Below, one piece after another: positions 54,163-57,312 of a DNA stretch of 64,000 nucleotides (its first letter is position 1; each line of letters opens with the position of its first letter). Origin of the DNA: Pseudomonas sp. PDNC002 (GTDB lineage: Bacteria; Pseudomonadota; Gammaproteobacteria; Pseudomonadales; Pseudomonadaceae); assembly GCF_016919445.1 (NCBI RefSeq), contig NZ_CP070356.1, positions 3,132,001 to 3,196,000 on the forward strand. The letters are read 5' to 3'. The notes beneath the pieces are model-generated. The model saw nothing but the letters and a program-made list of their open reading frames with translations. It was not told the DNA's origin and did not search any database. Position numbers and translations under genes: made by a program.

Positions 54163-55593
54163 TTAAGCCTGCAACGCCGGCGCCACCGTCTCGATCCGCA
54201 GCATGTTGGTACTACCCGGCTGCCCGAACGGCACGCCGGCAGTGATCACCACGGTGTCGCCACGGCGCGCCATGCGCTGGGCCAGGGCGATGTCCAGGGC
54301 GGTAGAGCAAATCTCGTCGACGTGGGCGAGTTGCGCGTTGACCACCGAATGGACGCCCCAGGCCACGGTCAGGCGGCGGGCGGATTTCAGTTGCGGCGTG
54401 AGGCTGAGGATCGGTGCCTTGGGCCGCTCGCGGGAGGCGCGCAGGGTCGAGGCACCGGACTCGGTGTAGTTCACCAGCACGGCCACCGGCAGGATGCGGC
54501 TGATCCGGCGGATCGCGCAGCTGATGGCGTCGGAGACGGTGGCGTCCGGCTCCGGGCGGTTGATCTCCAGCGTCGCCTGGTAATCCGGTTCGGCTTCGAC
54601 CTGGCGGATGATCTTCGCCATCATCTCCACCGCTTCACGCGGGTACTGGCCCGAGGCGCTCTCGGCGCTGAGCATCACGCAGTCGGCGCCTTCGCTCACG
54701 GCGTTGGCGACGTCGGTCACTTCGGCGCGGGTCGGCGCCGGGGAGAAGCGCATGGATTCGAGCATCTGGGTCGCCACCACCACCGGGCGGCCGAGCTGGC
54801 GGCAGACCTGGATGATGCGCTTCTGGATACCCGGCACGCTTTCGGCCGGCATCTCCACGCCAAGGTCGCCACGGGCGACCATGATCGCGTCGGACAGGCG
54901 AGCGATGGCTTCGATGGACTGCACCGCCGAAGGCTTCTCGATCTTGGCCATGAGGAACGCTTTGTCGCCGATCAGCGCGCGGGCTTCCTCGATATCTTCG
55001 GGACGCTGCACGAAGGACAGCGCCACCCAGTCCACGCCCAGCTCCAGGCCGAACGTAAGATCTCGGCGGTCCTTGGCGGTCAGCGGGCTGAGCTTGAGCA
55101 CCGCTTCCGGGACGTTGACCCCCTTGCGGTCGGACAGCTCGCCGCTGTTCATCACGCGGGTCTCGATGGCATCGCTGTGGGCGTTGAGCACCTGCAGACG
55201 AATCTTGCCGTCGTCCAGCAGCAGGCTCATGCCCGGTTCCAGCGCCTGGATGATTTCCGGATGGGGCAGCATGACGCGCTGGGCATCGCCCGGTGCGTCG
55301 TTGAGGTCGAGGGTGAAGGTCTGGCCCTTCTCCAACTGGACGGCGCCATCAGCGAAACGGCCCACGCGCAGCTTCGGCCCTTGCAGGTCCATGAGGATGC
55401 CGATGGGGTAGTTCAGCTCGGTTTCCACTTCGCGTACCCAGGCGAAACGCTGGGCGTGGTCGGCGTACTCGCCGTGGCTGAAGTTCAGGCGGAACAGGTT
55501 GGCGCCGGCTTCCACCAATGCGCGGATGTCGTCGCGGCTTTTGATCGCCGGGCCCAGGGTCGCCAGAATCTTTACTTTTTTATCCGGAGTCAT
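54163..55593 (-). CDS. pykF: Pyruvate kinase
   Basis: This enzyme turns phosphoenolpyruvate and ADP into pyruvate and ATP. The 476-residue protein has K-I-L-A-T-L-G-P-A, R-L-N-F-S-H-G, I-G-I-L-M-D-L-Q-G-P-K-L-R, F-L-M-A-K-I-E-K-P and M-V-A-R-G-D-L-G-V-E, then the allosteric C-terminal domain. It is last in the gcl-hyi-glxR-ttuD-pyk row, where it completes the route from glyoxylate to pyruvate. The ATG lies three bases from an inverted-repeat element, and no good Shine-Dalgarno is visible (only GAG). Confidence 0.95.
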   Translation of the reverse strand: MTPDKKVKILATLGPAIKSRDDIRALVEAGANLFRLNFSHGEYADHAQRFAWVREVETELNYPIGILMDLQGPKLRVGRFADGAVQLEKGQTFTLDLNDAPGDAQRVMLPHPEIIQALEPGMSLLLDDGKIRLQVLNAHSDAIETRVMNSGELSDRKGVNVPEAVLKLSPLTAKDRRDLTFGLELGVDWVALSFVQRPEDIEEARALIGDKAFLMAKIEKPSAVQSIEAIARLSDAIMVARGDLGVEMPAESVPGIQKRIIQVCRQLGRPVVVATQMLESMRFSPAPTRAEVTDVANAVSEGADCVMLSAESASGQYPREAVEMMAKIIRQVEAEPDYQATLEINRPEPDATVSDAISCAIRRISRILPVAVLVNYTESGASTLRASRERPKAPILSLTPQLKSARRLTVAWGVHSVVNAQLAHVDEICSTALDIALAQRMARRGDTVVITAGVPFGQPGSTNMLRIETVAPALQA

Positions 55594-55596
55594 AAT

Positions 55597-55863
55597 CAGG
55601 CTCGAATCAGGTGATTTCGTGGCCGCGTTGCTGGGTCAGCGTTCGCCAGGCTAGACGCGGAATGCAGCTAATGGTGTTCCCTTTGCAAATTCCGCAACGA
55701 CGCATGGCGAACGCTGACACGCAACCCGAAGGGACGGGGCCAGCTTGTCGCAGTGCAGCGTTGCTCGTCGGTCATTTGGAATCACCAAATCTCTCTCCTC
55801 GCGCCTCGCCCTGCGACAAGCTGGCCTCCGTCGCGGTCGACGAAATCACCTGATTCGAGCCTG
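55597..55863. mobile_element. 267-bp element with 24-bp perfect terminal inverted repeats and two hairpin arms
   Basis: Terminal inverted repeats lie at 55597-55620 and 55840-55863 (24 of 24). Inside, arm one is GTCAGCGTTCGCCA (55635-55648) paired with 55705-55718. Arm two is GGCCAGCTTGTCGCAG (55738-55753) paired with 55811-55826, tipped by ATTTGGAATCACCAAAT (55774-55790). A single strand would fold as a three-way junction. No transposase is encoded, so it is MITE-like. I do not recognise it. Confidence 0.7.
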
Positions 55864-57127
55864 CATTCTCGAGGACCAGGATGGCGCGGAAGTCGTTGAC
55901 GTTGGTACGGGTAGGCTTGGTGATCACCAGGTCGCCCAGTTCGGCGAAGAAGCCATAGCCGTTGTTGTTGTCGAGCTCGTGCAGCGGATTCAGACCGGCC
56001 TTGAGGGCGCGGCTATAGCTGCACGGACTCATCAGGGCACCGGCGTTGCTTTCCATGCCGTCGATGCCGTCGGTGTCCCCCGCCAGGGCCCAGATGTTCG
56101 GTTCACCTTTCAGGTCGGCGGTGAGGCTGAGGAGAAACTCGGCATTGCGTCCGCCGCGGCCATTGCCGCGCACGGTCACGGTGGTCTCGCCACCGGAGAG
56201 GATCAGGCACGGCGCCTTCAGCGGCTGGCCGTACTTGCGAACCTGCCGGGCGATGCCGGCGTGGACCTTGGCCACTTCGCGGGACTCGCCTTCCAGGTCG
56301 CCCAGGATCAGCGTGGGGATGCCAGCGGCTTCGGCCTTGGCAGCCACCGCGTCGAGGGCATGCTGGGGCGTGGCGATCAGCTTGAAGTGGCTGCGCGACA
56401 GGCATTCGTCGCCGGGCTTTACCGTTTCCGAACGCGGGTCCTCCAGCCAGGCGCGCACATTCGCCGGGACGTCGATGGCGTAGCGCTTGAGGATCGCCAG
56501 GGCGTCGGCGGAGGTAGTCGGGTCGCCCACGGTGGGACCGGAGGCGATCACCGTGGCCTCGTCGCCGGGCACGTCGGAAATCGCGTAGGTGTATACGCTG
56601 GCCGGCCAGCAGGCGCGGGCCAGGCGGCCGCCCTTGATGGCGGAGAGGTGCTTGCGCACGCAGTTCATTTCGCCGATGGCGGCGCCGGATTTCAGCAGGG
56701 CCTTGTTCACGCTGCGCTTGTCGTTGAGGCTGATGCCTTCGGCCGGCAGGGCGAGCAGGGCGGAACCGCCGCCGGAGAGCAGGAAGATCACCCGGTCGCT
56801 CTCGCTCAGGCCGCTGATCAGCTCCAGCACGCGACGGGCAACACGTTCGCCGGCGTCGTCCGGTACCGGGTGCGAGGCTTCCACCACTTCGATGCTGCGG
56901 CACTGCGCGCCGTAGCCGTAGGGCGCGACTACCAGGCCTTCGACCTGGCCGTTCCAGTGTTGCTCGGCGACTTCGGCCATGGCCCCGGCGGCCTTGCCGG
57001 CGCCGATGACGATGGTGCGGCCACCTCTATCGGTGGGCAGGTGCTGCGCCAGTACCTGGGCCGGATGCGCGGCGGCAATGGCAGTGTCGAACAGCTCGCG
57101 CAGGAAGGCGCGTGGGTCCAGGCTCAT
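55772..57127 (-). CDS. ttuD: Hydroxypyruvate reductase / glycerate 2-kinase family (TtuD, MOFRL)
   Basis: TtuD proteins belong to the glycerate 2-kinase (GckA) family, annotated also as hydroxypyruvate reductases; here the protein should handle glycerate made by GlxR. The 451-residue protein has I-G-A-G-K-A-A-G-A-M, L-L-S-G-G-G-S-A-L and S-G-P-T-V-G-D-P, and C-terminal MOFRL blocks S-G-G-E-T-T-V-T-V, G-R-N-A-E-F-L-L and A-G-D-T-D-G-I-D-G. The family end (N-D-F-R-A-I-L-V-L) is followed by about 32 extra residues encoded by the inverted-repeat element. The ATG at 57127 follows GGGAG; one at 57163 after AAGGAG is possible. Confidence 0.88.
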   Translation of the reverse strand: MSLDPRAFLRELFDTAIAAAHPAQVLAQHLPTDRGGRTIVIGAGKAAGAMAEVAEQHWNGQVEGLVVAPYGYGAQCRSIEVVEASHPVPDDAGERVARRVLELISGLSESDRVIFLLSGGGSALLALPAEGISLNDKRSVNKALLKSGAAIGEMNCVRKHLSAIKGGRLARACWPASVYTYAISDVPGDEATVIASGPTVGDPTTSADALAILKRYAIDVPANVRAWLEDPRSETVKPGDECLSRSHFKLIATPQHALDAVAAKAEAAGIPTLILGDLEGESREVAKVHAGIARQVRKYGQPLKAPCLILSGGETTVTVRGNGRGGRNAEFLLSLTADLKGEPNIWALAGDTDGIDGMESNAGALMSPCSYSRALKAGLNPLHELDNNNGYGFFAELGDLVITKPTRTNVNDFRAILVLENAGSNQVISSTATEASLSQGEARGERFGDSK

Positions 57128-57312
57128 GACAGGCTCCCGTGATTCTTGTTGTGGTGTATCCATGGCTCAATCTCCTTGGCAAAGGAGACTCAGCGATGGA
57201 TTCGAACGCCCCGGCCGGCAAGGCCGTGATTCCCACCGGCCGGGTGTTCGAGTCGCTTTGCAGCATGGCGGGCGACGCCACTCCCATAACCTCGCCCGTC
57301 ACCTTGCTCCGT

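Follow-up and report, generated by a model that had tools for sequence, protein, structure and literature searches.

A dispersed family of probable MITEs of about 266 bp with a conserved three-way fold and IS5-type ends in Pseudomonas and other proteobacteria

Introduction

MITEs are usually known by the ends that they derive from their parent elements, and their middle is regarded as being of little consequence. Among the small repeats treated in the part of a review consulted here, the MITEs RUP, Correia/NEMIS and ERIC are stem-loops of 107–155 bp; RUP is tied to IS630 by common ends, and the effect of ERIC on mRNA is orientation-dependent (Delihas 2007, PMC2229807). The same part presents the CIR repeats of Caulobacter with a two-arm RNA model and a linker (PMC2229807). 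The elements MITEPsy1 and MITEPsy2 of Pseudomonas syringae are 100 and 228 nt long, and the former has been tentatively related to IS5, with CTAG or YTAA as targets; the term ‘secondary structure’ is absent from the portion of that text used here (PMC3189936). The R-families and REPs of P. fluorescens are dispersed, structured, intergenic repeats, which according to the sections consulted prefer a tail-repeat-tail placement (Silby 2009, PMC2718517). REP/REPIN sequences are described, in the part of the source used, as palindromes of 20–40 bp (PMC3733652).

The 267 bases at positions 55597–55863 of the window, the 64-kb stretch of the genome of Pseudomonas sp. PDNC002 that was analysed, are one copy of a dispersed family of ~266 bp. 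The family resembles RUP, Correia/NEMIS and ERIC, as far as these are covered in the part consulted, in its small size, TA ends and stable fold, and it differs from them in its length, three-way fold, occurrence across classes and changing ends (PMC2229807). In the portion of the source used, CIR repeats are shorter (~110 bp) and alphaproteobacterial, and their terminal repeats are unlisted (PMC2229807). The two MITEPsy elements differ in length and have other terminal repeats in the text portion used (PMC3189936). None of the R-families, which span 50–352 bp in the sections consulted, is near 266 bp when compared by listed size rather than by sequence, and in contrast to their placement the present family lies between convergent genes in 7 of 90 sites (PMC2718517). 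Membership of the REP/REPIN group was considered and rejected, because a family of ~266 bp with IS5-type ends does not correspond to palindromes of 20–40 bp. No description of this family was found in the consulted parts of the open-licence PubMed Central literature on such repeats (PMC2718517, PMC2267715, PMC10969869, PMC4853749, PMC4465626, PMC6053426, PMC3189936, PMC2229807).

Also close to the family are the ISPa67-like IS5 elements (NCBIfam transpos_IS5_3), which share with the family the terminal repeats, including the end subtypes TTGACG, TTCCCG and TTGCC, and the TA, usually CTAG, borders. By contrast, they are ~860 bp long and have a gene for a 249-residue transposase in their middle.

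Results and discussion

Architecture of the window copy

The element and its neighbouring genes, the latter with the names pyk and ttuD given in an earlier note on this DNA, are organized as follows.

54163–55593, minus strand: pyk, with its start codon 3 bases from the left end of the element
55597–55863, plus strand: whole element (MITE copy), matching the family model at 55598–55862
55597–55620, plus strand: left terminal inverted repeat, 5′ side of the outer stem, deviating from the family end AGGGTCTGTTGACGTTTCG
55621–55626, plus strand: 5′ side of the inner stem, with its partner at 55833–55838
55627–55725, plus strand: arm one, a 14-bp stem (55635–55648 with 55705–55718) and an apical module
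55725–55733, plus strand: inter-arm CCCGAAGGG, junction CCC/GGG pairs
55733–55832, plus strand: arm two, a 16-bp stem (55738–55753 with 55811–55826) and an apical module
55764–55803, plus strand: 40-nt module in arm two, with near forms known in Gamma- and Zetaproteobacteria
55774–55779 with 55785–55790: small hairpin within arm two
55840–55863, plus strand: right terminal inverted repeat, 3′ side of the outer stem
55772–57163, minus strand: ttuD frame, a mechanical open reading frame that enters the element and has its stop at 55772

The outer inverted repeat (55597–55620 with 55840–55863) is perfect over 24 bp, and it provides the single 24-mer of the window with a perfect inverted partner at most 300 bases away; no such 24-mer arose in any of 20 order-1 Markov simulations. 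The earlier note had described inverted ends that match perfectly over 24 bp, a 14-bp arm one, a 16-bp arm two with a small hairpin at its tip, and the absence of a transposase. The coordinates of the ends were reproduced, both arms and the hairpin were located, and the 267-bp element holds no internal open reading frame of at least 100 amino acids. Both terminal repeats of this copy diverge from the family ends. The folding z-score of the window copy is −11.4 as RNA and −13.8 as DNA, and none of 200 shuffles equals either value.

A search of positions 55000–56500 against Rfam returned nothing at E ≤ 1, and ARAGORN reported 0 tRNA genes in positions 55500–56000. A known Rfam family and a tRNA, including a tRNA-like cloverleaf, were set aside as identities of the element, as neither search gave a match in these ranges. 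A pattern scan of the window copy found no promoter- or terminator-like site inside the element and two terminator-like sites outside it.

Conservation of the three-way fold

The fold comprises the outer stem, the two arms and a small hairpin at the junction. It was evaluated in an alignment of 60 sequences with pairwise identity below 88%, from which 10 of the 70 representatives were omitted because of their odd length. Across the 71 pairs, 95.2% of the cells of these diverse copies are paired, and two-sided changes are present in 65 pairs, in the stems of both arms as well as in the outer and inner stems. The covariation score is 0.570, as opposed to 0.153 in shuffles and 0.083–0.126 when the partners are slid by 1–3 columns. 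The three-arm structure, for which a covariation check had been proposed, is thus supported by compensatory changes that span classes of bacteria. Matching of the ends could by itself account for the covariation of the outer stem, but not for that of the arms. The three junction CCC/GGG pairs hardly vary and are intact in 58, 60 and 60 of the 60 aligned relatives.

Three rival accounts address the upkeep of this fold; all are compatible with mobility, and they may overlap. According to the first, replication errors that copy one arm to the other keep the arms complementary, and the fold itself is unselected. Such quasipalindrome correction requires no function. The two-sided changes (795 cells) far exceed the wobble states, and G-T cells make up 3.5% of the paired cells in the alignment, a low share that leaves room for arm-to-arm copying in DNA. 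However, strand-symmetric copying predicts equal numbers of G-T and A-C cells, whereas the plus strand has ratios of 185:79 in the 134 distinct full copies and 141:56 in the alignment; in arm two alone the ratios are 40:36 and 16:22. Arm copying also does not explain the conservation of loop and junction sequences across classes, and it is an unlikely account of the fold.

The second account is that of a structured RNA carried by transposition and acting on co-transcribed genes. Conserved structure with strong covariation, as in 65 of the 71 pairs of the 60 sequences, is what characterizes a structured RNA. The wobble asymmetry, by contrast, points to the opposite strand, since the G-T excess is on the plus strand and the minus strand is usually the one in gene sense; the flanks of the copies are many and unrelated, and the window copy has no promoter- or terminator-like pattern. 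Together with the evidence on orientation given below, these observations make the RNA account a tentative possibility.

In the third account the functional form of the fold is single-stranded DNA or a cruciform, which draws the two ends close to each other or is recognized in transposition or replication. The apical parts of the two arms are alike in inverted orientation, with a score of 13.0 that is matched by 0.08% of 5000 shuffles, and each half of the element would therefore consist of an end and a module. This likeness and the folding z-score as DNA favour a role of the fold in DNA, but the score of the whole arms in inverted orientation, 17.0 (reached by 1 of 2000 shuffles), is barely above that in direct orientation, 15.0 (9 of 2000 shuffles). 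Considered with the points on IS5 elements and replication forks raised below, a DNA role of this kind is rather improbable.

Fold energy was considered as a determinant of strand choice. Over all 134 copies there is a slight difference in stability in favour of the minus strand (p = 0.03; for arm one, p = 2e-5), and it is absent in the sets of 56 and 15 less similar copies. The candidate was dropped, because the difference was gone once near-identical copies were removed.

Distribution of the family

The window copy used as a query matches 18 of 25 same-genus genomes, and a typical full copy matches 211 of 398 Pseudomonadaceae genomes from 13 of 19 genera; the latter survey scored no more than two candidates in each genome, so that its copy numbers are lower bounds. 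The loci examined contain 187 non-overlapping matches, 162 full and 25 partial, and the partial ones were left out of the full-copy set. The full copies represent 134 distinct sequences, 129 of which span 262–269 bp, and after merging they occupy 111 independent sites. Four plasmid records also match (two of Azotobacter, one of P. aeruginosa and one of Halomonas); a search of phage records with the family gave no match.

In a sample of the phylum, 53 of 398 genomes match, many of them over just ~50 bases of arm two. The pattern of the 40-nt arm-two module matched at least 120 stretches, and the 80 matches listed include sequences from Ca. Thiodiazotropha, Zetaproteobacteria, Salinisphaerales, Gilvimarinus, Halieaceae, Woeseiaceae, Chromatiales, Azotobacter and Pseudomonas. 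A pair of terminal repeats accompanies 55 of the 80 matches listed; 40 of these 55 copies measure 263–269 bases from GGG to CCC, and the 15 others have lengths between 181 and 319 bases, so the length is not always ~266. In the remaining 25 of the 80 matches listed no terminal pair was found, and several of these loci end near the module. One Thiodiazotropha genome contains 84 forward and 86 reverse end sequences.

At a locus of G475, a genome from the family f58 to which the zetaproteobacterial genomes also belong, at least three copies of the arm-two hairpin module are arranged in tandem (L110, positions 1501–1750), and there are no AGGG terminal repeats within this range. Because of these tandem copies, the arm-two module may exist outside MITEs.

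Insertion sites and mobility

Among 25 same-genus genomes, 21 have no insertion at the pyk/ttuD site, two carry the element there (the window genome and G013), and the other two contain a shrunken remnant (G009 and G024). In 18 of the 21 empty-site genomes, visual inspection shows an ATGA in which the stop of ttuD and the start of pyk overlap. In the window (55593–55600 and 55772–55860) the insertion split this overlap and extended the ttuD frame by a new C-terminal tail, the codons of which lie in the element.

The window genome has a second full copy (C1:485562–485826), next to a gene that we take to be selO, and a 99-base partial copy. The second site is empty in 14 genomes, and in G024 it retains a short palindrome of both ends; 9 of the 25 genomes matched only partially and were excluded from this reading.

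Sequences flanking AGGG..CCCT have T on the left and A on the right in 88 of 131 sites, and the borders are exactly CT..AG in 29 of the 131. As TAGGG..CCCTA is itself an inverted repeat, these counts fit a TA duplication without proving it; it is also unproven because TA is present at the insertion place in just 2 of the 14 empty second sites (L221 and L225) and the borders of both copies in the window genome are not clean TA.

Reduced versions of the element were observed as well. Short near-perfect palindromes composed of the two terminal repeats only (L070, positions 1501–1546, in G004; L236, at the second site of G024) are apparently elements minus both arms, and a one-armed version has both terminal repeats (L069, positions 1501–1684, in G028).

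The evidence that the element family is mobile is strong. The earlier note had suggested a non-autonomous mobile element, with a single-strand DNA recombination substrate and a structured RNA regulator of pyk as further candidate roles; the suggestion of mobility agrees with the 111 independent sites, the empty sites at two loci, the TA-like borders and an IS5-family transposase source with the same ends. The copies at unrelated loci and the empty sites in relatives that it proposed to look for were both found, and the contrary outcome, an element confined to pyk/ttuD with broken stems, did not occur. The family has several properties of a MITE, being short and without a transposase gene, and occurring in multiple copies with empty sites.

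IS5 elements as a probable source of movement

The repeat end at contig edges of G033 matches IS5-family genes on plasmids. Of five plasmid copies of such IS5 elements, four carry the end CTAGGGTCTGTTGACGTTTC or a near variant on both sides, at CTAG; one copy is annotated as ISPa67, and the fifth is decayed. Both transposases tested are typed as IS5 by Pfam and NCBIfam. The terminal repeats are common to the family and to autonomous IS5-family elements. The ends of MITE and IS5 match within the record of the Azotobacter plasmid NZ_CP066311.1 (TTGACGTTT) and agree in G076 (TTAACACTA), where the IS is present as seven identical gene copies; in the zetaproteobacterial G598 (TTCACAT, from contig-edge fragments) the ends of the two are similar and non-identical. 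The IS5 elements with the same ends carry a gene, and no three-way interior was seen in them, which speaks against the third account of the fold. In a plasmid of P. avellanae, two tandem IS5 copies have one CTAG common to both (L281, positions 728–2450).

With a cut-off of E ≤ 1e-20, none of the 25 same-genus genomes yielded an ISPa67-like transposase; the same query recovered full copies in G065 and G076. Two IS5 transposase queries gave no match in the genomes from Gilvimarinus and Thiodiazotropha, the latter with 84 forward and 86 reverse end sequences. Movement in the genus of the window, in Thiodiazotropha and in Gilvimarinus would be either past or due to another IS5 element.

An IS630 mover was first suggested by the CTAG targets and by an IS630 copy beside one element in Azotobacter, and it was set aside because the adjoining copy has other ends and because the multi-copy genomes G014 and G022 have no DDE_3 match. 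That IS630, with its different ends, adjoins the MITE on an Azotobacter chroococcum plasmid, apparently at the same TA (L034, positions ~1290–2485). The 5.3-Mb genome G065, from genus g17, which we infer to be Azotobacter-like, has 90 DDE_3 transposase matches.

Orientation relative to neighbouring genes

Neighbouring genes were called by simple scripts rather than taken from annotation, and their co-transcription is presumed. Of the 111 sites, mainly from Pseudomonadaceae, 90 were classified and 21 are unclear. Between genes of the same direction, the plus strand is antisense in 49 sites and sense in 17 (p = 0.0001); another 17 sites are divergent, and the rest are convergent. The bias before the merging of sites was 66:14. 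The site in the window is outside the 90 classified; an initial call had placed it between tandem genes, its plus strand being antisense. Among 39 unmerged elements from other groups, 24 were classified (antisense 14, sense 1, divergent 5, convergent 4; p = 0.001 for 14:1) and 15 are unclear.

At 26 of 110 sites a left-hand gene has its start (CAT) no more than 4 bases away from the left end, as opposed to 13 of 111 sites with a right-hand ATG at most 4 bases from the right end. The excess of start codons is modest, because wrong readings also occur near the ends (ATG left, 15; CAT right, 6). The orientation bias in two separate sets and the more frequent start codons at the left end favour a structured RNA that acts on co-transcribed genes, and the modest size of the excess counts against it.

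A bias in replication strand was considered and rejected, the strand relative to the replication fork being 25:19 in 26 genomes, with origins assumed at contig starts and elements near mid-contig skipped. With the same assumption about origins, this ratio also stands against recognition of the fold in replication.

Proposed origin and significance

The family is probably a MITE that IS5 transposases mobilize in trans and whose folded interior is under selection. Judging from its terminal repeats, an IS5-family transposase would act on them in trans, and the element would have inserted into TA sites, often CTAG. The fold itself would be under selection, because a homologous interior, mostly of ~266 bp, is combined with ends that vary from lineage to lineage, and because the ends resemble those of IS5 elements from the same genome or plasmid in the three cases in which both were read. 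As to the nucleic acid under selection, RNA or single-stranded DNA, the evidence is conflicting. Insertions would persist mainly one way round between co-directional genes; in that orientation, the minus strand of the window would be included in the operon mRNA, where the element is probably a tolerated or useful structured spacer.

A further-reaching proposal, to be taken as speculative, is that the interior may be a selected, inherited unit, a head-to-head doubled RNA or single-stranded DNA module. It would have spread through Gamma- and Zetaproteobacteria by taking successive IS5 ends, with a fixed orientation in operons, and its folded transcript would act on neighbouring genes.

In this family it is the middle that persists across classes, with its fold and for the most part its length, while the ends differ; the insertions, moreover, have an orientation relative to the surrounding genes. 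The idea that a MITE can have a folded nucleic acid as its functional cargo thereby becomes testable, and the family would supply a model for annotating a common repeat that gave no match in Rfam.
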